NCBI RefSeq assembly: GCF_900095695.1
Contig: NZ_FMIQ01000055.1
Coordinates: 118,196-182,195 of the forward strand
Reading direction: 5' to 3'
Source: Hafnia alvei
GTDB taxonomy: Bacteria; Pseudomonadota; Gammaproteobacteria; Enterobacterales; Enterobacteriaceae
DNA length: 64,000 bases
The notes beneath the pieces are model-generated. The model worked only from the letters and a program-made list of their open reading frames with translations, did not search any database and was not told where the DNA came from. The position numbers were made by a program, and so were the translations under genes. This document shows, piece by piece, positions 18,110 to 34,375 of the stretch. Positions within the stretch are counted from its first letter, which is position 1. Every line of letters starts with the position of its first letter.

Positions 18110-18299
18110 CTTACTCAGTCACAATAGTCTATCGCTCGTTTTCCTCCCTAATCAGTAAGTTACCCGTAACAATTCGGTTTATTCACGCCAAATCTGTCAT
18201 TTCCAAACGTAGCGTAACGTAAGCAAATATTTCATAACAACACATTCAGCAAGGAAATGGTGTTAAATAACTGATAACATTTTGTAGATGGGCAATGTC

Positions 18300-19037
18300 A
18301 TGGCAAAAGAAAAATCTGGAAGCTCAAGAAGAGATTTCCTTCTAAAAACAATAACATTAGTACCCGCAGTGGCTATCGGTGGAACAGGTATTGGTTCACT
18401 GGCTGCTCCAATAGTTGCTCATGCAACTGAACCTAAAGCGCCAGAAAAGCATACGGCGCGTGATTACAACCCTACCTTTTTTACTCCTGAAGAATATGCG
18501 TTTGTGCAAGCGGCCGCTGCACGCTTGATCCCGAATGACGATCGTGGTCCTGGCGCGTTAGAAGCGGGCGTACCCGAGTTCATCGATCGCCAAATGAATA
18601 CCCCGTATGCCACAGGTTCACAGTGGTATATGCAAGGGCCATTTAATCCTGATGCAGAACATGATTTTGGCTATCAGCTGCCGTTAACGCCGCAGCAGAT
18701 TTATCGTTTAGGCGTGGCCGAAGCCAATGACTACGCAAAAAAGCAGGCAGGCAAAATCTTTGCTGAATTACCGCAGGACAAGCAGGACGATCTGTTAAGC
18801 CAAATGGAAGGCGGGAAAGCGGAGTTTACTCAGGTACCGGCCAAGGTCTTCTTCTCTTTCTTACTGCAAAACACCCGTGAAGGTTTCTTTAGCGATCCCA
18901 TCCATGGTGGCAACCAAGGCATGGTGGGCTGGACGCTAATCAATTTCCCAGGCGCACGTGCAGATTTTATGGACTGGGTAGAGCGCGGTGAACGTTATCC
19001 GTTCCCTCCGGTGTCTATTCGCGGAGAAAGAGGATAA
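18300..19037 (+). CDS. Gluconate 2-dehydrogenase, subunit 3 (gamma)
   Basis: The small subunit of the membrane-bound periplasmic gluconate dehydrogenase has a twin-arginine signal: [20 protein letters not shown] near residues 8-27, which exports the folded complex. The mature part belongs to the Gluconate_2-dh3 family ([26 protein letters not shown]). The complex oxidises D-gluconate to 2-keto-D-gluconate at the outer face of the inner membrane and passes electrons to ubiquinone. An in-frame ATG at 18288 is an alternative start (245 or 249 residues). It is the first of three tightly spaced genes. Confidence 0.93.
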
Positions 19038-19040
19038 ATC

Positions 19041-20825
19041 ATGGCGAATACAATGAAGAAAGTTGATGCGGTTGTGGTGGGATTCGGTTGGGCGGGTTCC
19101 ATTATGGCGAAAGAACTCACCGAAGCCGGTTTAAATGTGGTGGTGCTAGAGCGTGGTCCGCATCGCGATACCTATCCTGATGGTGCCTATCCGCAGGTGA
19201 TTGATGAATTAACCTATAACACCCGACGTAAGCTGTTTCAGGACTTATCCAAAAGCACCGTGACTATCCGCCATAACGTCTCTCAAACCGCGCTGCCTTA
19301 TCGTCAGCTAGCGGCATTTTTACCGGGAACCGGTACCGGTGGCGCAGGCTTGCACTGGTCTGGGGTGCATTTCCGTATCGACCCGATGGAGTTGCGCATG
19401 CGCAGCCATTATGAAGAACGCTATGGCAAAAATTTTATTCCTGAAGGGATGACGATTCAGGATTTCGGCGTGACCTATGAAGAGCTTGAGCCGTATTTTG
19501 ATAAGGCTGAGAAAGTCTTTGGTACTTCAGGGACTCCGTGGAGCGTGAAGGGGAAAGTGATTGGTCAGGGCAAAGGGGGAAATCCGTTTGCGCCAGATCG
19601 TTCTGACAATTTCCCGTTACCGGCTCAGAAACGCACCTTCTCTGCACAGATGTTTGCTCAAGCAGCGGAGTCTGTGGGCTATCATCCTTATGATTTACCT
19701 TCGGCAAACACCTCAGGCCCGTACACTAATACCTATGGTGCTCAGATGGGGCCATGTAACTTCTGCGGATTCTGCAGTGGTTACGCCTGCTATATGTATT
19801 CTAAAGCCTCGCCAAACGTTAACGTGTGGCCAGCTTTACGCCAAGAGCCTAAATTCGAGCTGCGTACCAACTCACATGTACTGCGCGTTAATCTGACCGA
19901 TGATAAAAAGCGCGCCACCGGTGTGACCTATGTGGATGCGCAGGGGCGTCAGGTTGAGCAACCTGCTGATTTAGTTATTTTGGCCGCATTCCAATTCCAT
20001 AACGTGCATCTGATGCTGTTGTCTGGCATTGGCCAGCCTTACAACCCGATAACGAATGAAGGGGTGGTCGGGCGTAACTTTGCTTACCAGAACATTTCGA
20101 CGATTAAGGCCTTCTTCAATAAAGATATCTTCACTAATACCTTCATTGGTGCCGGTGGTGCTGGTGTGGGCGTGGATGACTTTAACGCTGATAACTTTGA
20201 TCACGCCAAATATGGCTTCGTCGGTGGATCGCCGTTCTGGGTGAACCAAGCGGGGACTAAACCAATTTCTGGTTTACCAACGCGCCCAGGAACTCCAGCG
20301 TGGGGAAGCAAGTGGAAGGCCGAAGTGGCTGATGTTTATCCGCATCATGTCTCTATGGATGCGCACGGTGCGCACCAGTCTTATCGTGCCAACTATCTGG
20401 ACTTAGACCCTAATTATAAAGATGTTTATGGTCAGCCATTGCTGCGCATGACGTTCGACTGGCAGGAAAATGACATCAAAATGTCGCAGTTTATGCATGG
20501 GCGTATGCATAAAATCGCCGAGGCGATGAACCCAACGGTGATTAGCGGTTCGCCTAAAAGTGAAGGGACGCATTTCGATACCACCGTCTACCAAACCACG
20601 CATATGAACGGCGGGGCGATTATGGGCGACGATCCGAAAACCAGCGCCATCAATCGCTATCTACAAAGCTGGGATGTGCCAAACGTGTTTGTACCGGGAG
20701 CATCAGCATTCCCGCAGGGCTTGGGCTACAATCCGACTGGAACCTTGGCGGCTCTGACTTACTGGTCTGCTCGTGCAATTCGCGAACAGTATTTGAAAAA
20801 TCCAGGACCGTTGGTGCAGGCTTAA
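19041..20825 (+). CDS. Gluconate 2-dehydrogenase, flavoprotein (catalytic) subunit
   Basis: This GMC-type oxidoreductase (594 residues) has the FAD-binding loop VVVGFGWAGSIMAKEL with Gly14, Gly16 and Gly19, then FLPGTGTGGAGLHWSG near residue 95. A cysteine cluster CNFCGFCSGYACYM near residue 240 is typical of the FeS/flavin subunits of this group. The C terminus has GMC active-site sequence HMNGGAIMGDD and NPTGTLAALTYWSARAI. It has no signal of its own and should be co-exported with the Tat-bearing gamma subunit. GAGGATAAATC precedes the ATG, three bases after the previous gene. Confidence 0.95.
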   Translation: MANTMKKVDAVVVGFGWAGSIMAKELTEAGLNVVVLERGPHRDTYPDGAYPQVIDELTYNTRRKLFQDLSKSTVTIRHNVSQTALPYRQLAAFLPGTGTGGAGLHWSGVHFRIDPMELRMRSHYEERYGKNFIPEGMTIQDFGVTYEELEPYFDKAEKVFGTSGTPWSVKGKVIGQGKGGNPFAPDRSDNFPLPAQKRTFSAQMFAQAAESVGYHPYDLPSANTSGPYTNTYGAQMGPCNFCGFCSGYACYMYSKASPNVNVWPALRQEPKFELRTNSHVLRVNLTDDKKRATGVTYVDAQGRQVEQPADLVILAAFQFHNVHLMLLSGIGQPYNPITNEGVVGRNFAYQNISTIKAFFNKDIFTNTFIGAGGAGVGVDDFNADNFDHAKYGFVGGSPFWVNQAGTKPISGLPTRPGTPAWGSKWKAEVADVYPHHVSMDAHGAHQSYRANYLDLDPNYKDVYGQPLLRMTFDWQENDIKMSQFMHGRMHKIAEAMNPTVISGSPKSEGTHFDTTVYQTTHMNGGAIMGDDPKTSAINRYLQSWDVPNVFVPGASAFPQGLGYNPTGTLAALTYWSARAIREQYLKNPGPLVQA

Positions 20826-20837
20826 GGAAACCAGAAC

Positions 20838-22166
20838 ATGAAAAAAATACTCTCAGTGCTGGTATTTGGCGCGTTTAGCATGAGCGCACTGGCTCAGGAA
20901 ACGAGCGGCGTAGATTTGATCAAGCGCGGCGAATATCTGGCCCGTGCCGGAGACTGCGTGGCCTGTCATACCAGTAAAGGTGGAACCCCATTCGCGGGTG
21001 GATTACCGATGGCAACGCCAATCGGCACTATTTACAGTACCAATATCACGCCTGATAAGAAGCACGGCATTGGCGAATACTCTTTTGAGGATTTTGATCA
21101 AGCGGTGCGACACGGCGTGGCTAAGAACGGCAGTACGCTATATCCCGCGATGCCATATCCTTCCTATGCCGTTGTAACCGAACCGGATATGCGCGCGCTT
21201 TATGCCTATTTCATGCAGGGCGTAAAACCGGTCGATCAGGCAAATAAAGACAGTGATATTCCTTGGCCGTTGTCGATGCGTTGGCCGTTGTCTATCTGGC
21301 GCGGGATGTTTGCGCCGGACGTGCAGGATTTCAAACCCACACAGGGTGAAGACCCGGTGCTGGCACGTGGCCGCTATCTGGTGGAAGGTTTAGGGCACTG
21401 CGGTGCTTGCCATACACCGCGCAGTATTACCATGCAGGAAAAAGCGCTGAATAATGCGCAAGGTGATGTTTACCTTTCCGGCAGCGCGCCAATTGATGGC
21501 TGGATTGCTTCAAATCTGCGCGGTGATAACAAAGACGGTTTAGGTAGTTGGAGTGAAAAAGATCTGACTGAGTTCCTGCGAACGGGGCGAAACGATCGTA
21601 CTGCCGTGTTTGGTGGCATGACCGATGTGGTTGAGCATAGTTTGCAGTACTTAACGCCAGAGGATGCCACGGCAATTGCGCGGTATCTGAAGTCACTGCC
21701 GGCAAAAGATAAAGATCAGCAGGCCTTTAAAGAAGATAAAACCGTCGCTAATGCGCTGTGGAAGGGCGATGACAGCAAGAAAGGCGCAGCGGTATACGTT
21801 GATAACTGTGCGGCTTGTCACCGAACTGACGGTAGTGGTTACACGCGTTTCTTCCCTGAACTGCGTGGTAATCCGGTGGTGATGACCGATGATGCTACTT
21901 CGCTTATCCATGTAGTATTAACCGGGAATACGCTACCGGGCGTGAAAGGGGCTCCATCCTCGATCACCATGCCTGCATTTGGCTGGCGCTTGAACGATCA
22001 GCAGGTAGCTGATGTAGTTAACTTTATTCGCACTAGCTGGGGGAACAAAGCCCCAGAAATTACGGCGAAAGACGTTGCCAAAGTGCGCGAGAATAAGGAC
22101 ATTATTCCCGATCCGAAATTGTTAGGCAGTCCTGAAATTGAAAAATTACAGGCCACACAGCAATAG
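20838..22166 (+). CDS. Gluconate 2-dehydrogenase, triheme cytochrome c subunit
   Basis: The 442-residue protein begins with a Sec signal peptide (cleavage near SALA-QE, residue 19). It has three haem c motifs: Cys40-VA-Cys43-His44, Cys188-GA-Cys191-His192 and Cys324-AA-Cys327-His328. This is the electron-accepting subunit that links the flavoprotein to the quinone pool. The last 50 residues carry the membrane-associated tail. It starts 12 bases after the flavoprotein gene. No terminator is obvious before the convergent toxin gene at 22209. Confidence 0.95.
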   Translation: MKKILSVLVFGAFSMSALAQETSGVDLIKRGEYLARAGDCVACHTSKGGTPFAGGLPMATPIGTIYSTNITPDKKHGIGEYSFEDFDQAVRHGVAKNGSTLYPAMPYPSYAVVTEPDMRALYAYFMQGVKPVDQANKDSDIPWPLSMRWPLSIWRGMFAPDVQDFKPTQGEDPVLARGRYLVEGLGHCGACHTPRSITMQEKALNNAQGDVYLSGSAPIDGWIASNLRGDNKDGLGSWSEKDLTEFLRTGRNDRTAVFGGMTDVVEHSLQYLTPEDATAIARYLKSLPAKDKDQQAFKEDKTVANALWKGDDSKKGAAVYVDNCAACHRTDGSGYTRFFPELRGNPVVMTDDATSLIHVVLTGNTLPGVKGAPSSITMPAFGWRLNDQQVADVVNFIRTSWGNKAPEITAKDVAKVRENKDIIPDPKLLGSPEIEKLQATQQ

Positions 22167-22208: not shown

Positions 22209-22508
22209 CTAAAGCCGAATGAGATGTTCTTGTGGAGCCTGCCGTTGATGCAAGACGGCGGCAATCACTAAACGTTCATCGCTGATGATGTAATAAATCA
22301 CATGGCTCTTGTAGGGGAAATAGAATGACTCTCCGGCCATGTTGTTACAACGGATGCCCATCCGTGGCGTTCTAGCCAGAAGCTGTAGCTGCTTCCTGAG
22401 CCCGGAGAGATAATTATCCGCCTGCTCGATACCCCAATGTTCAACGCTGAAGGCTCGGATCGTGAGCAGATGCTGCTTTGCCGCCAGCGATAAATAATAA
22501 GCCATCAT
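22209..22508 (-). CDS. ParE/RelE-family toxin
   Basis: The 99-residue protein has the ParE pattern: LSLAAKQHLLTIRAFSVEHWGIEQADNYLSGLRKQLQLLARTP with a long N-terminal helix pair, then RMGIRC and the strand SHVIYYIISDERLVIAAVLHQRQ. ParE toxins inhibit gyrase; the family assignment does not prove the target. Its start overlaps the antitoxin stop (ATGATGG), a usual toxin-antitoxin arrangement. Confidence 0.9.
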   Translation of the reverse strand: MMAYYLSLAAKQHLLTIRAFSVEHWGIEQADNYLSGLRKQLQLLARTPRMGIRCNNMAGESFYFPYKSHVIYYIISDERLVIAAVLHQRQAPQEHLIRL

Positions 22509-22771
22509 TTCTTATCGTGTTTACCTGCAAGAAGATCCTGCATAAAAACTTCGCCATCAATGGTTTGCCCGTTAACGATATCGCTTTGTGCCTGTTCAAA
22601 ACAGTGCTGCAGATGGGCTGCTTTAATCTCTTCCACGGCCAGATAGTTTTCATAAGACATGACTACGGCTACGGTTTTGCCGTTTTTGCTGATTTGAATC
22701 GGTTCTGCCTGAACGCTCATTAATAACTCTCCAAACTGGGTTTTTGCTTGGTTGGCGGTATAGGTTTTCAT
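22505..22771 (-). CDS. Phd/YefM-type antitoxin
   Basis: The 88-residue protein has the Phd/YefM DNA-binding N terminus (YTANQAKTQFGELLMSVQAEPIQISKNGKTVAVVMSYENY) and a charged C-terminal tail that should wrap the toxin. It is the first gene of the pair on the minus strand and probably autoregulates the promoter in 22772-22870. Pairing of a Phd-type antitoxin with a ParE toxin is common. Confidence 0.92.
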   Translation of the reverse strand: MKTYTANQAKTQFGELLMSVQAEPIQISKNGKTVAVVMSYENYLAVEEIKAAHLQHCFEQAQSDIVNGQTIDGEVFMQDLLAGKHDKK

Positions 22772-23031: not shown

Positions 23032-24483
23032 TTACGCATCAACTAAAGGGCTTAGACGCTGGAATAGGGGATCAAGATATTGGTTCGCCTGACGGTAAAC
23101 CTGCTGATTTAACGCGTTATACAGGTTATGGTTTTTTGGGTTAGGCATAAATGTATCGCCCATTCGCACCATTTTCTGTGTCGCTTGTTCATAGTTATCA
23201 AAAGCGCCCACGGCCATGCCTGCGTTAATGGCGCACCCAATGGCGGCCGATCCTTTCATGATGTTTCGGCTAGTGGGAATACCAAATATATCGGCGAATA
23301 TCTGCATGAAGACATCGCTGTTAGCACCGCCGCCAGAGATGATTAGGCTTTTGAACGGGGTCTTTAGCTCGGTCGCCATCTTATCCATATGATTTTTCAT
23401 GGTGAATGCGATGCCTTCCAGCACGGAGCGATACATGTGGCCACGGGTGTGGCGGCCATCAAAGCCAATCATTGCCCCTTTTCGGAATTCAGCCTCTGAT
23501 GGGGGAGCCCAGTCATGAATGGTGAGTAACCCTTCACATCCCGCCGGTATTTTTTCAGCTTCACGATTGAGCAATTCCTCAATACTTTCACCTTGGTCAC
23601 ATGCTTCTGCTAAAGCCGCTGCGCCAAACTGATCGCGAAACCAGCTGATAGTCCACATTCCGCGGCGAACACCCATGCATTCATAGAGATAATGATTTGG
23701 AATTGACGCTTGGAATGGCCAGAAATTTTTAGCCTCTTTGACATTTTCGTGCCCGTGAACCATCGCGCCAATGTAAGTGCCCAACGAAATCAGAGCAACG
23801 CCCTCGTCGAGAGAGCCTGCGCCCAAGGCTTCAACGGCTTTATCATGAGCGGTAGCAATAACCGGAATACCGGCGGGAATGCCAAGTTTTTTTGCCACGC
23901 TATCGGTAATTTGGCCCAGAATTTCTCCCGGACGCACAACATCAAACACCTGCTCGCGAGTGAGATTACAGCTCTGCCAGGTAGTGGGATCGGTGCTCCA
24001 ATCCAACGTATCGTTGTCCATTGGCCACCAGCCAATGTAATTTGCGCAGGTATCTTTAAACTCCCCCGTCAGCCGATGGGTAATATAACCGGAAGTTGTC
24101 GTGACATAGCGAACGCCTTGGTAGGCGTCTATATATTCATAAGGTTTATTTAAACGCTTATCCATCCAGTTAATCACGGGGTAAGCCAGTTCTCCATTGG
24201 CTTTGAGCAGCACACGGCAACAGCGAATGATACACACGCCCATAGCCAGAATATCGTCTGCACGGCGCCCTTGCTGATGGAATTTTTGCATTGCAGCGCG
24301 GAAGGCAATTTGTAGGGCATCCCACAGATCGTCATCAGGATGTTCGGCCAAGAGCGGCGCGGGAATATCCATTTTCCGTAATGCTTGTTTCCCTTCACAA
24401 ATAACTTGCCCATCCACGTCAAAAATAACCACTTTTGCACTTTGGGTACCCACATCCACACCCATAAGATATTGATTTTTCAT
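23032..24483 (-). CDS. ygcE: FGGY-family carbohydrate kinase YgcE
   Basis: The 483-residue protein has the sugar-kinase fold: LMGVDVGTQSAKVVIFDVDG (ATP phosphate loop), a central ATAHDKAVEALGAG and C-terminal LIISGGGANSDVFMQIFADIFG. FGGY kinases phosphorylate sugars or sugar alcohols; the substrate here is unknown. It is assigned as YgcE from family and from its position next to YqcE and the rest of the ygc cluster. It is 70 bases downstream of yqcE on the same strand, presumably one operon. Confidence 0.88.
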   Translation of the reverse strand: MKNQYLMGVDVGTQSAKVVIFDVDGQVICEGKQALRKMDIPAPLLAEHPDDDLWDALQIAFRAAMQKFHQQGRRADDILAMGVCIIRCCRVLLKANGELAYPVINWMDKRLNKPYEYIDAYQGVRYVTTTSGYITHRLTGEFKDTCANYIGWWPMDNDTLDWSTDPTTWQSCNLTREQVFDVVRPGEILGQITDSVAKKLGIPAGIPVIATAHDKAVEALGAGSLDEGVALISLGTYIGAMVHGHENVKEAKNFWPFQASIPNHYLYECMGVRRGMWTISWFRDQFGAAALAEACDQGESIEELLNREAEKIPAGCEGLLTIHDWAPPSEAEFRKGAMIGFDGRHTRGHMYRSVLEGIAFTMKNHMDKMATELKTPFKSLIISGGGANSDVFMQIFADIFGIPTSRNIMKGSAAIGCAINAGMAVGAFDNYEQATQKMVRMGDTFMPNPKNHNLYNALNQQVYRQANQYLDPLFQRLSPLVDA

Positions 24484-24553: not shown

Positions 24554-25807
24554 TCAGTTACGATGCGTTGCTCGTCGCATGTTTTGAGCCAGCAGGTAGG
24601 TAAACACGATAACCAGGCCGGTTGCGGCAAGCCCCATTAGCCACATATTTCGATAGGCCTGCGCCGCAGGCAACGTGTCTTGCCAATGACCGATAATGGG
24701 ATAGACAAAGACATCAGGGAGAAAGCCAATCACCGAGCAAATACCAACGGTGGTTCCCATTATGTAGGCGGGGGTTCGTGCCTCGCCAATGCAGGCAAAA
24801 TAGAGTCCACGAGAGGCGTAACACACAAAGGCAAGCAACAGGATTAAACCTATCCCGATCGCAACAGAGCGTGGATTTTGGTTAGTAATGAGCAGCGCAA
24901 CTAATGTGATAACGCTGATGACGGCTAAAAACTGTATGACGCGGGTGGGGGATTTGAAACGACTATAGGTCGTGATTAAACCGCCCAAAGGCCCACACAT
25001 GGCACGGAAGATCTTGTTGATCACGATCCCCATGTAGCTGGCCGCAACGAGATCCATGGCATACATTTCGGTGAGATAATTAGTCGAGTAGCTGAGAATG
25101 GCGTAGATGGTATACACGCCAAAAATAATCATGCTGCAATACCAAGTGGTACTAATTTTGAGTACAGAGAGGATATCGCTGAGGTGGAATGCTGGAGAGG
25201 TTGTTTCGCCGCGTTGGCTGAAGCCGTCTTTAACAAAAAACCAGCAAAGAATACCTAGCAGAATGTAGACACCGCTATAAATCAAAATAACAGCTTTTAA
25301 GCTATTGGGATCGTTGGGAGAGAATAGTGAGAACACCCACATGGTGAATACGGCGAGGGCCATAACGCCAACGCCGCGTAAGCCTTCCATCCAGCCCATG
25401 ATTTTTCCCTGTTCATCATGTGAGCCCAACAACGAAGCGGCTTTAATTGAAACAGACCAGAGCAAAAGGATCGTGGTAATAGCAAATGCAACCTGAATGA
25501 AGATCATGACCCAAAAAGGCGGATAAATCATCATCAGCAGACCAAGGAGTCCGGTGGCAATCATAGAAAATGACATCATTTTCTTATGTGAAAACTTATC
25601 GGCAATAACGCCGCTTGGGGCATAAAGAATAATAGCCGTAATACCAAAAGTACTCATAATGAGCCCAATTTCGGTATTTGAAAAACCCATGAACTTTGCC
25701 ATGGGGATTTGATAAATATAGCGTAGGTAGGCAAGGTCAAAACTCACGCCACCACTAATGCTTATTATTGCAAGTGTTACCCAACGACGGAAATTATCTT
25801 TATCCAT
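24554..25807 (-). CDS. yqcE: MFS transporter YqcE
   Basis: This 417-residue permease (E. coli YqcE 425) has about twelve membrane segments. FDLAYLRYIYQIPMAKFMGF is at the N terminus and the first cytoplasmic loop is GVIADKFSHKKM. It is a likely importer or exporter for the compound handled by the ygc enzymes; the substrate is unknown. It is the first gene of the leftward operon, with a 91-base leader that contains a conserved terminator/antiterminator pair and an upstream CRP site. Confidence 0.88.
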   Translation of the reverse strand: MDKDNFRRWVTLAIISISGGVSFDLAYLRYIYQIPMAKFMGFSNTEIGLIMSTFGITAIILYAPSGVIADKFSHKKMMSFSMIATGLLGLLMMIYPPFWVMIFIQVAFAITTILLLWSVSIKAASLLGSHDEQGKIMGWMEGLRGVGVMALAVFTMWVFSLFSPNDPNSLKAVILIYSGVYILLGILCWFFVKDGFSQRGETTSPAFHLSDILSVLKISTTWYCSMIIFGVYTIYAILSYSTNYLTEMYAMDLVAASYMGIVINKIFRAMCGPLGGLITTYSRFKSPTRVIQFLAVISVITLVALLITNQNPRSVAIGIGLILLLAFVCYASRGLYFACIGEARTPAYIMGTTVGICSVIGFLPDVFVYPIIGHWQDTLPAAQAYRNMWLMGLAATGLVIVFTYLLAQNMRRATHRN

Positions 25808-25832
25808 AATAGTTTCTCAGTAAGCACATGGC

Positions 25833-25896
25833 AAAAAAAAAAGAGAAAAGTAAACTCCCCGCAAGGGAAGTTACTTTTCTCTTAGTCTCCAGTAAC
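25833..25896 (-). promoter_or_regulatory. Terminator/antiterminator switch in the yqcE leader
   Basis: On the minus strand a long stem (25842-25882; outer arms AGAGAAAAGT and ACTTTTCTCT, inner CTTCCC with GGGGAG) is followed by a U-run (25833-25841). Just upstream GTTACT (25896-25891) can pair with AGTAAC (25875-25870), which is part of the terminator 5' arm. The two structures exclude each other. The same design and nearly the same sequence occur on the plus strand before ygcW. Confidence 0.8.
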
Positions 25897-25904
25897 GACT
25901 GAGA

Positions 25905-25947
25905 TTAATAGCATGCTGGTTGAATTAATTTCGTGAGAATTGTCACA
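25905..25947 (-). promoter_or_regulatory. yqcE promoter with class II CRP site
   Basis: CGTGAGAATTGTCACA (25932-25947) is a near-consensus CRP site centred at 25939.5. A -10 like TATTAA (25910-25905, minus strand) predicts a start near 25898, exactly 41.5 bases from the CRP centre, the class II geometry. The terminator stem would begin about 16 bases into the transcript. Confidence 0.65.
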
Positions 25948-26076
25948 ATTCTAATTTTGGTTAATAAACAATAGCTAAATATAAAGTCCTTTAAATAAGA
26001 TAGTTAATAGTTTTATGCAGAAAAATAAAGTCATGTTTTTTATAAGGGGATTTTTAATCTGTCTTAGTTATATTTA

Positions 26077-26118
26077 TGTGATTGTGGTCACGGAAGTTGC
26101 CAAGGTAATCATGATACT
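26077..26118 (+). promoter_or_regulatory. ygcW promoter with class II CRP site
   Basis: TGTGATTGTGGTCACG (26077-26092) is a near-perfect CRP site centred at 26084.5. GATACT (26113-26118) can serve as -10 for a start near 26126, again 41.5 bases away. It mirrors the yqcE promoter on the other strand. The 416-base gap between the two operons contains only these control regions. Confidence 0.65.
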
Positions 26119-26127
26119 AATCTTATC

Positions 26128-26194
26128 AGTTACTCGAGATAAAGAGAAAAGTAACTTCCTGCTAAGCGGGGAGTTTGCTTTTCTCTTTTTTTTT
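26128..26194 (+). promoter_or_regulatory. Terminator/antiterminator switch in the ygcW leader
   Basis: AGAGAAAAGTAACTTCC (26143-26159) pairs with GGGAGTTTGCTTTTCTCT (26169-26186) and is followed by nine T residues, a strong intrinsic terminator 30 bases before the ygcW start. Upstream AGTTACT (26128-26134) is fully complementary to AGTAACT (26150-26156) inside the 5' arm, giving an alternative antiterminator helix. The sequence is nearly identical to the yqcE leader on the opposite strand. Confidence 0.8.
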
Positions 26195-26223
26195 GCTCTT
26201 TTATTATGAACAAAGGATATATC

Positions 26224-27009
26224 ATGTCATTAAGCGCATTAAATGAATTTAATCTCGACTTTTTCTCGTTAAAAGGAAAAAACGCGATCGTCACCGGTGG
26301 GAATAGCGGGCTAGGGCAGGCTTTTGCGGTGGCTTTAGCCAAAGCAGGCGCAAATCTATTTATTCCCAGCTTCATTATGGATAAGGGTGAAACCCGCGAA
26401 CTTATTGAACAGCAAGGTGTACAGGTTGAGTTTTTACAGATTGATATCACCGAAAAAGGTGCGCCGGCCAAGGTTATTGCTCAGTGCGTAGAGCGGTTTG
26501 GCTCTGTGGATATTTTAGTTAACAATGCCGGCATCTGTAAGCTTAATAAAGTGCTCGATTTTGGCCGTAAAGATTGGGACCCGATGATTGATATCAATCT
26601 TACTGCGGCATTTGAACTTAGCTATGAAGCAGCAAAATTTATGATCCCACAGAAAAGTGGGAAAATAATTAATATATGCTCGTTATTCTCTTATTTGGGT
26701 GGGCAATGGTCACCGGCTTATTCTGCAACAAAACACGCGCTGGCTGGATTTACCAAGGCCTACTGTGATGAGTTGGGGCAATATAATATTCAGGTTAATG
26801 GTATTGCACCTGGATACTATGCAACCGAAATTACGACAGAGACACGTAAAAACCCAGAAACTAATCAACGTGTATTAGACCATATTCCCGCCAATCGTTG
26901 GGGTGAGACTCAGGATTTAATGGGGGCAATGGTTTATTTAGCGAGTAGAGCGTCAAATTATGTTAACGGTCACTTGTTGGTTGTCGATGGGGGTTATTTA
27001 GTGAGATAG
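26224..27009 (+). CDS. ygcW: Short-chain dehydrogenase YgcW
   Basis: This 261-residue SDR matches E. coli YgcW almost throughout (same length). The NAD(P) loop is TGGNSGLGQAF, followed by NNAG (NNAGICKLNKVLDFG) and the catalytic Ser-Tyr-Lys set in CSLFSYLGGQWSPAYSATKHAL. It is close to gluconate/uronate 5-dehydrogenases, so a sugar-acid substrate is plausible but unproven. The ATG at 26224 follows AAAGGA; the frame extends six codons upstream. It is the first gene of the rightward ygcW-U-S-R-Q operon. Confidence 0.93.
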   Translation: MSLSALNEFNLDFFSLKGKNAIVTGGNSGLGQAFAVALAKAGANLFIPSFIMDKGETRELIEQQGVQVEFLQIDITEKGAPAKVIAQCVERFGSVDILVNNAGICKLNKVLDFGRKDWDPMIDINLTAAFELSYEAAKFMIPQKSGKIINICSLFSYLGGQWSPAYSATKHALAGFTKAYCDELGQYNIQVNGIAPGYYATEITTETRKNPETNQRVLDHIPANRWGETQDLMGAMVYLASRASNYVNGHLLVVDGGYLVR

Positions 27010-27129
27010 GTAAATATAAAATAAATCTTCAATCATAAAGGGTGGTTCCTTTTTTATTTTATGTTGTTTTAGCACGGGTTTATTTGCTGAAAGCTAAATT
27101 TTAATTATCAAAAATGATAAGGATTGACT

Positions 27130-28584
27130 ATGCCGTTAACACGAGAAGAAATTGTTGAAAATTTGAAAGAAATTGTTGGCCCAGCTCGCGTGATTACCGA
27201 CAAAGCTGTATTACAGAAAAATAGTATCGATCGCTTCAGAAAATATGCCGATATTCATGGCGTATTTACGTTACCGCTGCCAGCTGCAGTCGTGATGTTA
27301 GAAAATACCCAGCAGGTTTCAGATGTTCTAGCATTTTTAAATAAACACAAAGTTAATTGTGTGCCGCGTACTGGCGCATCAGCGACCGAAGGTGGTCTGG
27401 AAACCGTGGTTGAAAACTCGGTGGTGTTAGATGGCTCGGGATTAAATAAAGTTATCAAGATTGATATTGAAAACATGCAGGCAACGGCACAGTGTGGTGT
27501 CCCATTAGAAGTGCTAGAAAACCAACTGCGTAGCAAAGGTTATACCACTGGTCATTCGCCACAGTCTAAGCCTCTTGCGCAGATGGGGGGATTGGTGGCA
27601 ACGCGCAGCATTGGCCAATTTTCAACGCTGTATGGCGCCATTGAAGATATGGTCGTGGGGTTAGAAGCTGTTTTCCCGAATGGCACTATCACCCGAATTA
27701 AAAACGTACCGCGCAGAGCCGCTGGGCCTGATATTCGCCACGTGATTATCGGTAACGAAGGCGCGTTGTGCTATATCACTGAAGTTACAGTTAAAATCTT
27801 TAAATATCAGCCAGAGAATAATCTGTTCTATGGCTATATCCTCGATAATATGCAGACCGGGTTTAAGGTTTTGCGTGATGTCATGGTGGAAGGATATCGT
27901 CCTTCGATTGCTCGCCTTTATGATGCGGAAGATGGCACTCAGCACTTTACCCATTTTGCCGATGGAAAATGTGTGCTGATTTTCATGGCGGAAGGAAGCC
28001 AAAAAATGGCACAGGCGATTGGCTCTGGCATTGAAGAAATCGTTGCTCACTATCCTGAATGTCGCCGTGTTGATAGCAAACTGATCGAAACATGGTTTAA
28101 CCATCTGAACTGGGGGCCAGATAAAGTGGCCGCTGAGCGTGTTCAGATAATGAAAACTAACAATATGGGCTTCACTACGGAAGTATCGGGAGACTGGGGA
28201 AGCATTAATAAAATATATGAAAATGTTATTCACCGTATTCGCAATGAATTTCCACACGCCGACGATATCACCATGCTGGGAGGTCATTCGTCGCATAGCT
28301 ATATCAACGGTACCAATATGTATTTCGTCTATGACTATAACGTTGTGGACTGCAAGCCAGAGGAAGAAATCAACAAGTACCATAACCCGCTGAATAAAAT
28401 CATAGTGGAAGAAACGATTAAGCAGGGCGGCTCAATGGTGCATCACCACGGCATTGGTAAACACCGCGTGCACTGGACAAAAGACGAGCATGGTTCGGCT
28501 TATTATATCCTCAAAGCGTTAAAAGACGTGTATGACCCCAACGGCATCATGAATATGGGAACCATTTATCCGATTGAAAAATAG
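27130..28584 (+). CDS. ygcU: FAD-linked oxidase YgcU
   Basis: The 484-residue flavoprotein matches E. coli YgcU over its entire length. The FAD-binding PCMH domain is in the first half (VPRTGASATEGGLETV, QSKPLAQMGGLVATRSIGQFSTLYGAIEDMV) and a C-terminal FAD-oxidase domain ends in GGSMVHHHGIGKHR. It is related to D-lactate/glycolate and alkyldihydroxyacetone-phosphate dehydrogenases, which reduce a quinone or an electron-transfer flavoprotein. The EtfAB-like YgcQR encoded downstream are the obvious acceptors (inference). The ATG at 27130 follows AAGGA. Confidence 0.93.
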   Translation: MPLTREEIVENLKEIVGPARVITDKAVLQKNSIDRFRKYADIHGVFTLPLPAAVVMLENTQQVSDVLAFLNKHKVNCVPRTGASATEGGLETVVENSVVLDGSGLNKVIKIDIENMQATAQCGVPLEVLENQLRSKGYTTGHSPQSKPLAQMGGLVATRSIGQFSTLYGAIEDMVVGLEAVFPNGTITRIKNVPRRAAGPDIRHVIIGNEGALCYITEVTVKIFKYQPENNLFYGYILDNMQTGFKVLRDVMVEGYRPSIARLYDAEDGTQHFTHFADGKCVLIFMAEGSQKMAQAIGSGIEEIVAHYPECRRVDSKLIETWFNHLNWGPDKVAAERVQIMKTNNMGFTTEVSGDWGSINKIYENVIHRIRNEFPHADDITMLGGHSSHSYINGTNMYFVYDYNVVDCKPEEEINKYHNPLNKIIVEETIKQGGSMVHHHGIGKHRVHWTKDEHGSAYYILKALKDVYDPNGIMNMGTIYPIEK

Positions 28585-28659: not shown

Positions 28660-28693
28660 GCATTGAGACAAGTGACTGCGCATGAGGATCAGA

Positions 28694-30058
28694 ATGTTAC
28701 AACAACGCCCTCAGCAGGTACGGATGGATGATATTCCGTTAAGCCGTTTTCATTTTCGTATTGCGGGTTTAACGTTTGGCGCGCATCTAACGGATGGTTA
28801 TGTGCTTGGCGTGATTGGTTTCGCGCTAGTGCAGATTAAGCCACAAATGGGGCTTTCTCCCGCTTGGGAAGGGCTGATTGGCAGTTCTGCATTATTCGGC
28901 CTATTTATTGGCAGCCTGACATTAGGCTGGCTATCCGACCATATTGGCCGACAAAAGATTTTCACCCTGAGTTTTGTGCTTATCACGCTGGCCTCTTTTT
29001 TACAGTTTTTTGTCACCTCTCCCGAACAGCTCTTTTGGCTACGGGTTTTGGTTGGCATTGGGCTCGGTGGAGACTATGCGGTTGGTCACACCATGCTGGC
29101 TGAATTTGCCCCCCGCAAGTACCGAGGCGTACTGCTCGGTGCTTTCAGCGTGATTTGGACGATTGGCTACGTGCTCGCCAGCCTGATGGGGCATTGGTTT
29201 ACAGATTCAGGGCCGGATACATGGCGTTGGCTGCTCGGGTCGGCCTCGATACCGGCGTTATGCATTATGTTACTGCGATGGGGAACGCCAGAATCGCCGC
29301 GTTGGCTGATGCGGAAGGGGCGAATTGAGGAAGCGCATCAGGTAGTTCGTTTATATCTGGGGCGAAATGTGATCCTTAATGATGAAATACCGGTTGAAAC
29401 CTCCCACCACATTCGCACTTTATTTTCAGCACGTTATTGGCGTAGAACGGCATTTAATAGCCTGTTTTTTGTCTGTTTGGTTATCCCGTATTTTGCTATT
29501 TACACCTATCTGCCCTCCATGCTGATCCTGCTAAACATCGATGCTGGTTTTGCGACAGATATGCTGCTGCATGGGCTGCTGATCGTCGGCGCATTATTGG
29601 GTTTGGTCTTAACCCAATATTGCTCACGGCGACGGTTTTTAATTGGCTCATTTATCGTGCTGGTTTTTTGCCTCGTGGTCCTTGCATTCACGCCATATCA
29701 GCAAGTTAGCGTGATGTTAGGGCTGTTTGGCATGTTCACATTGACTATCTCGGCGGTGAGCAATTTGGTTGGGGTATTTCCGGCAGAAAGTTTTCCCACA
29801 GACATTCGCTCGCTCGGGGTGGGGTTTGTTACTTCGATGAGTCGGTTGGGGTCGGCAATGGGGACGGGATTGCTGCCGCTGTCGGTGTTAGAGCTGGGGA
29901 TACGCACAACCACGTTAATTCTGGCTTTAGTGCTTCTACTGGGCGCGTGGGTTTCCCTGCTATGGGCGCCAGAAACCAAGGGGGCGACCTTGGTTGGCGC
30001 ATCTCAGGTAAGGAAAAAAGATCCCCATACGGTACTGACGCCTTCTGAACCTCTGTAA
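28694..30058 (+). CDS. ygcS: MFS transporter YgcS
   Basis: This 454-residue permease of the sugar/carboxylate-porter type matches E. coli YgcS (445 residues). It has HLTDGYVLGVIGFAL in the first helix, GWLSDHIGRQKIF in loop 2-3, GIGLGGDYAVGHTMLAEFAP and PAESFPTDIRSLGVGF. It is the second transporter of the cluster and probably imports the substrate of YgcW/YgcU. The ATG at 28694 follows AGGA; the frame also has an ATG at 28682. Confidence 0.92.
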   Translation: MLQQRPQQVRMDDIPLSRFHFRIAGLTFGAHLTDGYVLGVIGFALVQIKPQMGLSPAWEGLIGSSALFGLFIGSLTLGWLSDHIGRQKIFTLSFVLITLASFLQFFVTSPEQLFWLRVLVGIGLGGDYAVGHTMLAEFAPRKYRGVLLGAFSVIWTIGYVLASLMGHWFTDSGPDTWRWLLGSASIPALCIMLLRWGTPESPRWLMRKGRIEEAHQVVRLYLGRNVILNDEIPVETSHHIRTLFSARYWRRTAFNSLFFVCLVIPYFAIYTYLPSMLILLNIDAGFATDMLLHGLLIVGALLGLVLTQYCSRRRFLIGSFIVLVFCLVVLAFTPYQQVSVMLGLFGMFTLTISAVSNLVGVFPAESFPTDIRSLGVGFVTSMSRLGSAMGTGLLPLSVLELGIRTTTLILALVLLLGAWVSLLWAPETKGATLVGASQVRKKDPHTVLTPSEPL

Positions 30059-30070
30059 GGAGCAATCTTC

Positions 30071-30868
30071 GTGAAAGCATTACTTACGTTTAAGCCTCTT
30101 CCCGATCTCAGCATGTTATCCGAGCATGACTGGATCCCTAATGAGCAGCGACAGCTAAATATCGACCACGTGCGTTCAACGCTGAGCTGTTTTGATGAAA
30201 CCGCCGCTGAACTTTTATTAAGAGCTCAGGCGGCAGATAAAAGCCTGAAGCTAGAAGCCTTAGCCTTTAATGACAGCATGGTTGAATATCACCTTAAGTT
30301 GCTGTTGGCACTTGGTTTTGAGCGGGCATCACGGCTGATGGCTCCCGCCGGCGAGCTCTCCTTTAATCCATTGGCTAATGCGACAATATTGGCGAACTAT
30401 CTGCAGCACGAACACTATTCTTTGGTCGTGCTTGGGATGCAGTTTGGTGATGCTGACGATGGGCAAACGGCGGCGATGCTGGCTGAAATACTGGGATGGC
30501 CACATTTGAATCAGGTAAGTGATTTCACATTATTGCCAACGGCTAATTCGATTCGAGTTAGTCGAACGATGGAGACGGAAGTTCAGCACTTCACGATAAC
30601 ATTGCCAGCCGTTTTGGCCGTGGGTAACTCAACTCAGGCAGCAGCGCTTCGAATACCTACGCTAAAGCAAAAGTTGGCGGCCAGCAGAGCAAATATCGCA
30701 GCAGTAGCACCTGAGTTTTGCCCGGTAGAACAGGTTAGTTCACCGATTTTAGAAAGCCTAACCTCTATTGGCAAACAGAGAAAAACGCAGTGGCTTGAAG
30801 GAAAAACGCCGCAAGAGAAAGCGCTCAAACTCTATGATTTGTATCTACGAGAGAGAATAAATGTATGA
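30071..30868 (+). CDS. ygcR: Electron-transfer-flavoprotein beta-like protein YgcR
   Basis: The 265-residue protein is related to EtfB/FixA. It starts with GTG eight bases after AAGGAG. The fold is a Rossmann-like nucleotide-binding domain (NSIRVSRTMETEVQHFTITLPAVLAVG resembles the EtfB loop before the C-terminal arm). With YgcQ it should form a heterodimer carrying FAD and passing electrons between a flavin dehydrogenase (YgcU) and a membrane oxidoreductase (YgcN). Its stop overlaps the ygcQ start (ATGA). Confidence 0.9.
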   Translation: MKALLTFKPLPDLSMLSEHDWIPNEQRQLNIDHVRSTLSCFDETAAELLLRAQAADKSLKLEALAFNDSMVEYHLKLLLALGFERASRLMAPAGELSFNPLANATILANYLQHEHYSLVVLGMQFGDADDGQTAAMLAEILGWPHLNQVSDFTLLPTANSIRVSRTMETEVQHFTITLPAVLAVGNSTQAAALRIPTLKQKLAASRANIAAVAPEFCPVEQVSSPILESLTSIGKQRKTQWLEGKTPQEKALKLYDLYLRERINV

Positions 30869-31824
30869 AAATTGCGTTAATTTTTGATACCAATTCGCCT
30901 GCATTTTTGCGCCATGCCAGTGAGATGTGGCGGTTTTTACAAGATAGCCAAATCGAGAATGCTACTTTCACTTTTTGGCTGTTTTATCATCAAAATAAGC
31001 CGAGTGAGCTTCCGTTGCTCGGTTTATCACCCTCTGAAATTATAGGGTTTTCGGTGCCTGAGCCGATACAGGTTGAAGCCTGCTTATCTAGGCTCGAAGC
31101 AGCCTACGCCGAGTATCAGCCTGACGCCATACTGTGCAGTAGTGGGCAGTGGGGAAACGAGCTGGCTGCTCGACTAGGGATGCGGCTACATGGAAGTGCA
31201 ATAGCTTCTGCGCGATCCGTTTTGCTCTCTTCATCAAGCTGCACGGCCTATAAAGCCGTTTATGAACAACATCTGCTGGCTCAGTTTTCGCTGCCTATAC
31301 CGCCGTACTGTATATCTGTAGCGCAGAGTGGCGGAGGGACGATCGACGTTGCATCCGCTGCTCGGGTTACACAAATAGACATTCTGGAGCCAGCGCCTCA
31401 GTGTGAATGGCTACTTTCGGCGGAGGTTGAACGTAATGAGAATATTTTCCCGCTCAATGAGGCACGCAGTGTCTTGGCGGTGGGGTACGGCGTGGGCAGT
31501 GGTGCAGGCTTCCAGAAAATGCAAGATATCGCGCAACAGCTGGGGGCAAAACTTGGCGCAAGTCGCCCTGTTGTGATGAATGCGTGGAGCGATATGTCGA
31601 GCTTGGTGGGCATCTCTGGCGCGATTGTTGCGCCTGATATTTGCATTGCGGCAGGCGTGTCTGGAGCAGCGGCGTTTTCTGCAGGTATATGCCACAGCCA
31701 ATTTATTGTGGCAATAAACAACGATCCTCAGGCGGCTATTTTTGCTCACGCTGATGTCGCCATCGTTGATGATATGTATCCGGTGCTGGAAGCATTAGTG
31801 GTTTGCGTGCAACAGAACACTTAG
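30865..31824 (+). CDS. ygcQ: Electron-transfer-flavoprotein alpha-like protein YgcQ
   Basis: The 319-residue EtfA/FixB relative has the C-terminal FAD-binding domain: GVGSGAGFQKMQDIAQQLGAKLGASRPVVMNAW, then SGAIVAPDICIAAGVSGAAAF and IVAINNDPQAAIFAHADVAIVDDMYPVLEAL. These are the characteristic EtfA motifs, so FAD binding is likely. The stop codon lies in a tandem 15-base duplication (31816-31830 and 31831-31845), which repeats the TAG. Confidence 0.92.
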   Translation: MKIALIFDTNSPAFLRHASEMWRFLQDSQIENATFTFWLFYHQNKPSELPLLGLSPSEIIGFSVPEPIQVEACLSRLEAAYAEYQPDAILCSSGQWGNELAARLGMRLHGSAIASARSVLLSSSSCTAYKAVYEQHLLAQFSLPIPPYCISVAQSGGGTIDVASAARVTQIDILEPAPQCEWLLSAEVERNENIFPLNEARSVLAVGYGVGSGAGFQKMQDIAQQLGAKLGASRPVVMNAWSDMSSLVGISGAIVAPDICIAAGVSGAAAFSAGICHSQFIVAINNDPQAAIFAHADVAIVDDMYPVLEALVVCVQQNT

Positions 31825-31881: not shown

Positions 31882-32454
31882 TTATTGGTCAAAGGAGAGT
31901 TTCCACACGCCGGTATTGGTGGTGGAAATGGCGGTGGCTCCTGCATCGAGTGCATTATTAGCATCTTCAGCGTCGCACACGAGGCCACCGGCAATAATCG
32001 GCAGATCAATTTTCTCCGTTACCCACTTCAGCACTTTTGGCATACAGCCGGGCAGAATTTCAATACAGTCCGGATTCGACTGCGCAACCTGCTTATCAAT
32101 ACTGTGAAATGAAATGGAGTCGAGTAAAAAGAGTCGGTGTATGCCGTAAAACCCTTGGGCTCGGGCGGCCTTAATCATAGACGCTTTGGTACTGATGATG
32201 CCGTCGGCGGCGGTAACGATTTTAAGGAAGTTAATCACGATTTCTTTATTCGAGGTGCCATCAAGCAGATCAACATGGATAAAGGCGTATTTATCTGCGT
32301 TTTTAATGCGCTGGACAATCGCACCGATGTTGCAAATATTGCCGTATAGCACCGAAATAATCTTGCAGTCTGACTGCAATGCAACATTTAAACTTTCAGT
32401 ATCTTTCACCGCGGCGATAACGGGATGGTGGCGTAGAAGTTGCAAAATTGACAC
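31882..32454 (-). CDS. ygcP: GlpP-family putative antiterminator YgcP
   Basis: The 190-residue protein (E. coli YgcP 191) belongs to the family of GlpP, the glycerol-3-phosphate-responsive mRNA-binding antiterminator of Bacillus. It shows HPVIAAVKDTESLNVAL, AFIHVDLLDG, LLDSISF, EILPGCMPKV and IAGGLVCDAEDANNALDAGA in a TIM-barrel pattern. The start is GTG at 32454, seven bases after GGAGA; the open frame runs further upstream but has no support. The cluster contains two leaders with terminator/antiterminator pairs, which are candidate targets. The ligand is unknown. Confidence 0.88.
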   Translation of the reverse strand: MSILQLLRHHPVIAAVKDTESLNVALQSDCKIISVLYGNICNIGAIVQRIKNADKYAFIHVDLLDGTSNKEIVINFLKIVTAADGIISTKASMIKAARAQGFYGIHRLFLLDSISFHSIDKQVAQSNPDCIEILPGCMPKVLKWVTEKIDLPIIAGGLVCDAEDANNALDAGATAISTTNTGVWKLSFDQ

Positions 32455-32546
32455 GGGCGCTCTCCAGCATGATGTTAATGAAAGATTCTGAACATAACAT
32501 ATCACTCCGCCGCACAACGTATGCGGAGATACTTCACAGCACGCCA

Positions 32547-32825
32547 TTATCCATATCTGAATAAGATCCCAGCGCCTGCGGGAGGATATTGCCACCGCGA
32601 AAAAACCGCGCTGTCGCATAAAATTCGACAGGTGCCGCACTCTAAACAGCCTAGGTGATCGAATATCAGATTGCCTTGGGCGTCTAATTGATAAAGCCCG
32701 GCAGGGCAGCCATGAATCAATACTTGAGCCGTTTGCGGATCGATATCCGCAGATAAAACGATATGCGCGGGTATATCAGGTGAAGACTGAAAGTGGTTTT
32801 TCGCCAGCCTGTCGTGAGTATTCAT
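32547..32825 (-). CDS. ygcO: Ferredoxin-like protein YgcO (FixX family)
   Basis: The 92-residue protein has cysteines at 40, 60, 63, 66 and 70 (HGCPAGLY and GCLECGTCRILC), enough for one [4Fe-4S] cluster. FixX-type ferredoxins act with FixC-type flavoproteins. It overlaps the end of ygcN by four bases. The 92-base gap to ygcP contains a hairpin (CTCCGC/GCGGAG, 32507-32530) without a U-run. Confidence 0.92.
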   Translation of the reverse strand: MNTHDRLAKNHFQSSPDIPAHIVLSADIDPQTAQVLIHGCPAGLYQLDAQGNLIFDHLGCLECGTCRILCDSAVFSRWQYPPAGAGILFRYG

Positions 32826-34123
32826 AAACTTTTCCCCCCTCGCACAAGGTCTTTGAGCAATTGAGTGAGCCCGCTGCGTTTAGCATATTTCCACAGCAAC
32901 GTTCTTAGCGGCGGTGGCGGAGTTTCATTGATGGAAAAAAGATCCTGCATGAAATTGGCCGCTAGTTGCGGGTAGTGCTCGAACAAACGGGGCATCTTGA
33001 GTTGCATTTCTGGTACATGGCGATAGCGATGCATCAGAGACAATAACGAGGTTTCTTTGAGTGCGGCGTGATATTCGCTTAGCGATGATGGGCTAAAATC
33101 TTGCTTTTGCCATGCGGAAATTATCGTTTTGGCTGCGGCCTGAGCGGAGAGAATGGCCAAATCCATTCCTCGTACGATATAGCCGGTATTAACGCAGTAG
33201 CCAGCGGTATCGCCTACTAGCAAGTAGCCTGCGCCATAAACTGAGCGTGGCTTGTGGGTAATCTCTTCGGGAATGAGGTGCGCGCTATATTCGAGCCGTT
33301 CACTATTTTTGATTATCGGCGCGATGACCGGATGCTGGCGAAAACTCTCCATAAGCTGTGGCAGGCTCTGTTTTGCATCGTTGAGCGCCGAGAGGTTGCA
33401 GACCACGCCAAGCGATAGCGAGCTGCGGTTGGTATAGATGAATCCTCCTCCAACTTTTCCTTGGGTACAAGCGCCCGCAAACATCCAAGCGCAGCCTTGT
33501 TGAGGGAGCAGCGTGAAGCGGTCTTCTACTGTTTCTGCTGGCAAAGCGAGAATTTCTTTTACGCCAACGGCCATCGTATGAGGTAACGGTTTTGCAACCA
33601 GTTGATGCTTCTCTGCCAGCAGGGTGTTTGCGCCTTCAGCAACGATCACCCAATGTGCATAGAGCGATTCCTCACCTATTTTTACGCCGCAAATGCTACC
33701 TGACCGATCAATAAGGGCGTCTACGTTTACGCCAAGTAAGCATTGAGCACCTGCGGCCTCAGCCTGTGCCAATAGCCAAGGGTCAAAACGGGAGCGAAGC
33801 ACTGAATAGGAGGCTGTTTGTGATGCCTCAGGCGGGTGGCGATAGTCTAGTGTGACGGCGCTTGTATTGCTGAGTAATGATATTCGCTCTTGAGTTATTA
33901 GGCGTTCTAGCGGGGCGCTGGAGGCAAAATCGGGGATCAAGCGGCTAAGGCTATAGCTATACAGTCGTCCACCGGACATGTTTTTCCCGCCGGCCTGCGA
34001 CGAGCGCTCTAATAGAAGAACGTTCATTCCTGCTCTGGCAAGTAGCAATGCGCAACTACTTCCCGCGATCCCAGCACCAATAATGATGACATCAAATTTT
34101 TCATCTAAAGGCTTGTTACTCAT
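32822..34123 (-). CDS. ygcN: FixC/EtfD-like flavoprotein oxidoreductase YgcN
   Basis: The 433-residue FAD protein has VIIIGAGIAGSSCALLLARAG (described by its ends VIIIGAG and LARAG) at residues 12-32, ERSSQAGGKNMSGG, and VGDTAGYCVNTGYIVRGMDLA near residue 300. It resembles FixC and the ETF:quinone oxidoreductases, so it probably takes electrons from YgcQR with the ferredoxin YgcO and delivers them to quinone. The ATG at 34123 follows GGAGGATTGACATCG; the frame extends 25 codons upstream without support. The gap to dacC (34124-34375) holds divergent promoters. Confidence 0.92.
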   Translation of the reverse strand: MSNKPLDEKFDVIIIGAGIAGSSCALLLARAGMNVLLLERSSQAGGKNMSGGRLYSYSLSRLIPDFASSAPLERLITQERISLLSNTSAVTLDYRHPPEASQTASYSVLRSRFDPWLLAQAEAAGAQCLLGVNVDALIDRSGSICGVKIGEESLYAHWVIVAEGANTLLAEKHQLVAKPLPHTMAVGVKEILALPAETVEDRFTLLPQQGCAWMFAGACTQGKVGGGFIYTNRSSLSLGVVCNLSALNDAKQSLPQLMESFRQHPVIAPIIKNSERLEYSAHLIPEEITHKPRSVYGAGYLLVGDTAGYCVNTGYIVRGMDLAILSAQAAAKTIISAWQKQDFSPSSLSEYHAALKETSLLSLMHRYRHVPEMQLKMPRLFEHYPQLAANFMQDLFSINETPPPPLRTLLWKYAKRSGLTQLLKDLVRGGKSL

Positions 34124-34375
34124 CGATGTCAATCCTCCTTCAATGGAAGGAAACAGCATATCACCCCACACTGCTGCAAACTTGACCCAGCACAGCACAA
34201 TGATTAAGCAAAAAATTGATTAGCGAGTTTGTGAGGTTGGATTATATTTAAAGGGTTAATAATCTAGGGTTTATTCTTTAAGTTAAAGCCGTTATGGTTC
34301 CAAGCAGGGTGTACACGCCCTTTGCGAAGGTAAAGATTAATTTTTATTTATCTGAATGGATACGCTGGCATCATC

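Follow-up and report, generated by a model that had tools for sequence, protein, structure and literature searches.

The intergenic region between the divergent genes yqcE and ygcW of Hafnia alvei, analysed here within a window of 64 kb (the whole stretch of DNA under study), carries two leaders that are mirror images of each other, each with a CRP-like site, a GTTACT box, two GAGA repeats, the sequence AGTAAC, a hairpin and a U-run. The question raised by this arrangement is whether the leaders are RNA switches and, if so, which regulator operates them. On the plus strand, the cluster includes ygcW (SDR oxidoreductase, 26206..27009, with 26224 the likelier start by comparison with E. coli), ygcU (GlcD-type FAD-linked oxidase, 27124..28584) and ygcS, ygcR and ygcQ (a transporter followed by two electron transfer flavoprotein-like proteins, 28682..31824). 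The minus strand encodes yqcE (MFS transporter, 24554..25807), ygcE (FGGY carbohydrate kinase, 23032..24483) and ygcP, with ygcO and ygcN (32547..34198) upstream of the latter on the same strand.

Organization of the two leaders

In the ygcW leader (plus strand), the GTTACT box (26129..26134) is followed by a GAGA-TAAA-GAGA loop (26136..26147), the second GAGA of which lies within the 5' arm of the terminator, and by AGTAAC (26150..26155), which is complementary to the box and lies in the same arm; the intrinsic-terminator hairpin and U-run before ygcW occupy 26141..26194 (hairpin 26141-26188, T-run 26186-26194). The yqcE leader (minus strand) repeats this layout, with the box at 25891..25896, a GAGA-CTAA-GAGA loop at 25878..25889, AGTAAC, again the box complement and part of the terminator 5' arm, at 25870..25875, and the hairpin and U-run at 25833..25883 (hairpin 25883-25841, T-run about 25842-25833). 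The spacing between the box and AGTAAC is 15 nt in both leaders, with the two GAGA repeats inside it, and the terminator arm GAGAAAAGTAAC is present in both, so that every part of the shared block described in the sequence-only reading (box, about 15 nt, arm, U-run) is located. Both hairpins stand 5' of ygcW and yqcE, not 3' of them.

The mirror similarity resides in a pair of inverted repeats, one 50 nt long at 82% and the other 29 nt long at 97%. A search of the 64 kb with the arm AGAGAAAAGTAAMYTCC at no more than three mismatches yields five matches, compared with 0.39 expected; four of these are the arms of the two leader hairpins, and the fifth (61784, three mismatches) lies outside them. 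The terminator folds have energies of -29.9 kcal/mol (ygcW, z -5.4) and -26.8 kcal/mol (yqcE, z -5.2), with none of 200 shuffles as good in either case. Chance repetition as the source of the likeness of the leaders was rejected on the strength of the inverted repeats, the excess of arm matches and the comparison of folds with shuffles.

CRP-like sites and predicted transcription starts

A CRP site had been proposed to precede each leader, centred 41.5 bases from a plausible start. CRP-like sites, each with nine of ten consensus bases, are found in both leaders of the window, namely TGTGATTGTGGTCACG (26077..26092, plus strand) in the ygcW promoter and TGTGACAATTCTCACG (25932..25947, minus strand) in the yqcE promoter, and CRP-type promoters fit the comparative data: at least eight of the ten consensus bases are present in 52 of the 52 leaders compared (see below), with the centre 42.5-45.5 nt before the box, a count made with no shuffle control. 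In the window, the distance from the centre to the box is 44.5 nt (ygcW) and 43.5 nt (yqcE), and class II spacing (-41.5) would place the start 3 nt or 2 nt before the box, respectively. A sigma-70 consensus scan of the window detects no promoter at either predicted start. Published data point to the same interval: genomic SELEX places CRP there (PMC3105977), a computed CRP prediction falls there as well (PMC1794230), and a table of CRP binding in ETEC gives a ygcW/yqcE site, TGTGATTACGATCACA (PMC4287617), that is identical to the CRP-like site found here for ygcW of E. coli K-12.

Conservation, covariation and folding of the two helices

Nineteen loci were collected from YgcP relatives in named genomes. 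The yqcE-ygcW divergent pair is present in 17 of these, with both leaders in 17 of 17; in the remaining two, the cluster is on another contig (L031, see below) or the sequence ends inside ygcS (L032). Together with E. coli K-12, loci of seven further relatives and the window, this makes 26 loci, all 26 of which have both leaders (52 leaders); the set was gathered through YgcP/PF04309, and for E. coli by position, and is not a random sample. A 27th locus (L131) also has both leaders, and 4998 of 5426 complete E. coli genomes contain 80% or more of the intergenic region of K-12.

Among the 47 leaders parsed, the box/arm pairs are GTTACT/AGTAAC (28), ATTACT/AGTAAT (10), GTTACC/AGTAAC (4, all yqcE leaders, with a C-A mismatch at the last pair), GTTACC/GGTAAC (2), GTTACC/GGTGAC (2) and GTTGCC/GGCGAC (1). 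Five more ygcW leaders, with GTTACT/AGTAGC (a U-G pair), are outside these counts and inside the covariation test. In the alignment (A1), 92.4% of the cells of the antiterminator helix are paired, a value lowered by misplacement of the box in two rows (L034 and L043, yqcE side), compared with at most 54.8% for slid versions of the helix. The antiterminator helix has 16 double-change cells versus 4.0 in shuffles (none of 500 shuffles as good), and the base of the terminator is 98.0% paired, with seven double-change cells versus 1.5; the rows are related, and the shuffle results are not probabilities. Two of the five covariation measures do not exceed shuffles, namely double-change pairs (3 versus 2.1; 155 of 500) and further pair types (7 versus 7.9). 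The arm changes together with the box and with the 3' arm, as would be expected of mutually exclusive helices, and the alignment across relatives that had been suggested as a check of the two helices finds that both keep pairing through double changes.

The two folds differ strongly in stability. The forced antiterminator fold is above the terminator fold by a median of 15.4 kcal/mol (9.8 to 19.1 over the 52 leaders) and leaves a short inner hairpin distant from the U-run, and the box/AGTAAC helix, folded by itself, reaches only -4.2 and -4.7 kcal/mol (z near 0), a weak fold no better than shuffles, of which 51 and 89 of 200 are as good. Given the difference of about 15 kcal/mol, termination is probably the default and a helper would be needed, so that the antiterminator probably requires a bound protein. 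Thus, the earlier proposal that each leader forms either a terminator or a GTTACT/AGTAAC helix agrees with the comparative data with respect to the exclusivity of the helices, but the two states are probably not evenly balanced.

The near-identity of the two leaders had also been taken to argue for selection on one shared regulator of antitermination. Within L017 and within L041, the inner sequences of the ygcW and yqcE hairpins are identical, and they differ between the two genomes. This pattern suggests that the likeness partly reflects recent homogenisation in some species, as if by gene conversion; therefore, near-identity alone is no proof of selection. The shared regulator itself is supported by the presence of both leaders in 26 of 26 loci and by a GlpP-family gene in the cluster.

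YgcP as the probable regulator

This gene, ygcP (31882..32640, minus strand), which did not figure in the sequence-only reading, probably encodes the regulator of both leaders. The protein matches PF04309, the glycerol-3-phosphate responsive antiterminator family (E 1.7e-63), and is the sole match in the H. alvei genome; among solved structures, it resembles the glycerol antiterminators 3kts (E 5.8e-30) and 1vkf. An alignment of 12 GlpP-family members contains 11 invariant residues; in it, YgcP shares 27-36% identity with the GlpP proteins, those of the glycerol type included. The 252-aa open reading frame overlaps ygcO, and its homologues begin about 62 residues later, which makes the GTG at 32454 the likelier start. 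The ygcP gene of H. alvei has no leader element of its own, the only two matches of the leader model (R1, see below) in the genome being those of ygcW and yqcE. RefSeq describes the E. coli ortholog only as a putative anti-terminator regulatory protein; the present analysis would provide it with two concrete candidate RNA targets and a testable mechanism. In the open literature, no paper was found that names ygcP together with antitermination, and among the open papers mentioning ygcP none is, by title, on the regulation of the ygc genes.

The R1 model of the leader matches 6 of 394 sampled genomes of the order, with two copies in each, and the same six have a PF04309 protein above the cut-off (11 of 394 at E 0.001); three of the six (G280, G390 and G416) are outside the R1 training and may be near kin of trained rows. 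Among 118 relatives, PF04309 is above the cut-off in 12, of which R1 matches 11, all with the YgcP type and all included in the R1 training, and in the remaining one (G029), which has no R1 match, the sole PF04309 protein is a more distant paralogue. One genome with YgcP (G451), the draft contig of which ends inside ygcS, has no R1 match. There are two R1 matches per positive genome, with no third leader before ygcN/O/P or ygcS; a weak third match in G052 (E 5.5e-4) is the opposite strand of that genome's own ygcW hairpin and was rejected.

YqcE orthologues (at least 79%) are found in exactly the same six of the 394 genomes as the leader, so that the co-occurrence of leader and YgcP is confounded with that of the whole cluster. 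Two sets of observations loosen this confounding. In 6 of the 26 loci (L021, L027, L028, L029, L033 and L043), ygcP and the leaders are present, and ygcN, ygcO, ygcQ and ygcR are missing from the stretch examined. In Serratia microhaemolytica (G450), ygcP, the only PF04309 match of that genome, lies next to a metH-like gene on contig C9, and the remaining cluster with both leaders is on C13.

A related element in other phyla and in glycerol-gene leaders

A tblastn search of plasmid records with YgcP matched 40, and 15 stretches from 14 organisms that are non-enterobacterial or carry a paralogue were examined; the element is found in eight of the 14, and no clear element in six. The closest cases are Enterococcus gilvus and E. 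raffinosus (YgcP 47-50% identical) and Streptomyces clavuligerus (45%), the clusters of which encode YgcU (60-61% identical) and YgcW (59-69%) and, in E. gilvus and S. clavuligerus, a YgcE orthologue (45-52%). A GTTACT...AGTAAC element precedes a gene for a YqcE-like MFS protein (31-32% identical) in Enterococcus and the ygcW orthologue in Streptomyces; one leader was found in each of these clusters, in contrast to two in the enterobacterial loci.

A scan of 957 kb, both strands, for GAGA-N-GAGA with a flanking helix and a terminator gives 49 matches, compared with 20 over five rounds of a shuffled control, or 4 per round. These comprise 35 of the 52 enterobacterial leaders, 10 leaders from non-enterobacterial loci with a GlpP-family gene (E. 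gilvus, E. raffinosus, S. clavuligerus, Acetoanaerobium, two in Cytobacillus, Paenibacillus, two in Listeria, and Peptoclostridium, the last assigned by position only) and 4 elsewhere; within the window, only the ygcW and yqcE leaders match. The pattern was fixed after the enterobacterial, Enterococcus, Streptomyces and Cytobacillus leaders had been seen, and those of Paenibacillus, Acetoanaerobium, Peptoclostridium and Listeria came later. A second Paenibacillus leader appears when the helix requirement is dropped. No clear element is present around the GlpP-family genes of Fusobacterium, Vescimonas, Planococcus, Cupriavidus and Burkholderia or of the Klebsiella paralogue (with related variants seen by eye in Vescimonas and Planococcus), and the glycerol genes of Fusobacterium and E. 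gilvus are without it.

Seven leaders of glycerol genes in four genera (Listeria, Paenibacillus, Cytobacillus and Acetoanaerobium) have a pair of boxes around GAGA-N-GAGA, with the second GAGA within the terminator arm, and a terminator; glpF in Listeria and Acetoanaerobium was named from its position before glpK. Box sequences differ among the seven; even so, the upstream and downstream flanks pair so well that only 143 of 5040 permutations equal them, and over 12 leaders none of 20000 permutations does. In six of the seven (all except Acetoanaerobium), AGTTAAT, which resembles AGTTACT of the YgcP leaders, occurs 6-20 nt before the first GAGA (L089, 10590-10610 and 13065-13086; L093, 8850-8870 and 11104-11124; L119, 1077-1099; L120, about 1505-1484).

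These four genera stand in for Bacillus subtilis in the comparison with GlpP leaders (box, GAGA-N-GAGA, second box, terminator). In B. subtilis, a GlpP site and a 5' UTR terminator accompany each of the three promoters of glpD, glpT and glpFK (PMC9604022), and the ygc system is similar in the PF04309 regulator, the 5' UTR terminator by the promoter and FGGY kinase genes in the regulon (PMC9604022). It differs in that the targets of YgcP are not glycerol genes, the promoters have CRP sites, and the box is a single helix of 6-7 bp common to both leaders. The ygc locus thus combines a PF04309 regulator, a leader terminator between the predicted promoter and the first gene, and an element common with glycerol-operon leaders.

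Proposed mechanism and alternative explanations

Most of these observations are best accommodated if each leader is a GlpP-type antitermination switch that is started by CRP and stops transcription by default, with YgcP as the likely binding partner that permits read-through, and we regard this as quite probable from the sequence comparisons. Under this model, CRP would start the transcript a few bases before the box, such that the first bases of the RNA form the box, and by default transcription would stop at the leader hairpin. The 5' box could pair with AGTAAC, closing a loop with the two GAGA repeats, and ligand-loaded YgcP would clamp this whole element, from the box through the GAGA repeats to AGTAAC, ahead of the synthesis of the 3' arm. 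Together, the second GAGA and AGTAAC form the 5' strand of the terminator beside the U-run, so that, when they are bound by YgcP, the base of the terminator could not close; since termination requires the second GAGA to base-pair with the UCUC adjacent to the U-run, its clamping would be sufficient to prevent it. With YgcP bound, only the short inner hairpin far from the U-run would remain, and transcription would read through into ygcW or yqcE.

GlpP senses glycerol 3-phosphate, which is made by GlpK. Since the targets of YgcP are not glycerol genes, its ligand is likely to be a different compound, probably a phosphorylated intermediate, for which the product of the FGGY kinase YgcE would be the first candidate by analogy with GlpK and GlpP. 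Inducer control of this kind could account for a presumed silence of the ygc genes in usual growth and could offer a route to their substrate. An E. coli small RNA detected by RNA-seq upstream of yqcE on the same strand, in a study that reports northern signals for five of six small-RNA candidates, medium-dependent apart from the control (PMC4681348), we read as a candidate for the terminated yqcE leader. A ygcW entry in a table of RNA switches (PMC4448311) has coordinates 3.5-4.2 kb from ygcW, outside the leader, and was rejected.

Among the alternatives, the one that survives best, and that we nevertheless consider unlikely, is that the leaders are controlled by another RNA-binding antiterminator, be it a general factor or a PRD-domain protein of the BglG/LicT type, and that YgcP has a different role. 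The GTTACT box presumably resembles part of the bgl RAT element, which would speak for such a protein, but a scan of ten cluster proteins found none that is regulator-like besides the PF04309 protein, the glycerol-gene leaders beside GlpP have the same GAGA-N-GAGA core, and YgcP and the leaders co-occur even when unlinked. LicT stabilises an antiterminator that overlaps the terminator (PMC7430163), and BglG/LicT systems resemble the proposal for YgcP in this respect; they differ in the protein family, no PRD protein being present among the ten proteins scanned. Still less probable is attenuation by a leader peptide, whereby the position of the ribosome on a short open reading frame chooses between the two helices. 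An ATG open reading frame of at least six codons begins at the same place (MRKVTS...), behind AGAGA, in 23 of 26 ygcW leaders, but only 11 of 26 yqcE leaders and neither leader of the window contain one, the lengths and C-termini vary by species, some frames run into ygcW, and no shared control codons are seen; with no conserved leader reading frame, peptide-dependent attenuation was rejected.

Marginally less plausible again are plain insulating terminators, which would stop stray transcription and leave regulation of the operons to CRP alone: the terminators are strong and published CRP surveys list sites in the interval (PMC3105977, PMC4287617, PMC1794230), but the hairpins are located after the predicted promoters and before the genes, and an insulator would have no need of the box upstream, which is conserved and covaries with the arm. 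The least credible alternative is a metabolite riboswitch sensing its ligand without protein, which the short leader with two exclusive folds might suggest, but no Rfam family reaches the gathering score in 25800-26240, which eliminates known Rfam riboswitches and leaders, and the portion available for sensing would span about 25 nt, with a fold about 15 kcal/mol weaker than the terminator.

Returning to YgcP-dependent antitermination, we moderately favour a broader interpretation in which the GlpP family in at least three phyla reads a common, portable RNA code, namely GAGA-N-GAGA flanked by a pair of boxes of variable sequence, with the second GAGA as the 5' strand of the terminator; such a shared recognition element is proposed here for the family. 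In E. coli and its kin, YgcP would read this code in a metabolite-sensing, CRP-gated pair of antitermination leaders and thereby open both divergent operons, the genes of which would belong to an undescribed pathway for a sugar acid or polyol; the extreme 5' end of the RNA would be the switch strand. We rate the coupling of GlpP-type antitermination to CRP, and its use outside glycerol metabolism, as the new aspect.

Additional observations

An enterobacterial operon with a PF04309 paralogue (L037, about 7900; L038, L039 and L095) encodes an aldolase, the antiterminator, an FGGY kinase and an SDR protein, in this order, and has a strong hairpin and U-run before the first gene. The leader of this operon lacks the GAGA-N-GAGA element in all four loci; the operon may have a second antitermination system that has diverged from the first.

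Next to the ygc cluster in the window, three open reading frames (18288-22166, plus strand) resemble, by eye, the small, FAD and cytochrome c subunits of membrane-bound gluconate dehydrogenase. Between these and ygcE, two small adjoining open reading frames (22209-22771, minus strand) resemble, also by eye, a Phd-type antitoxin and a ParE/RelE-type toxin.
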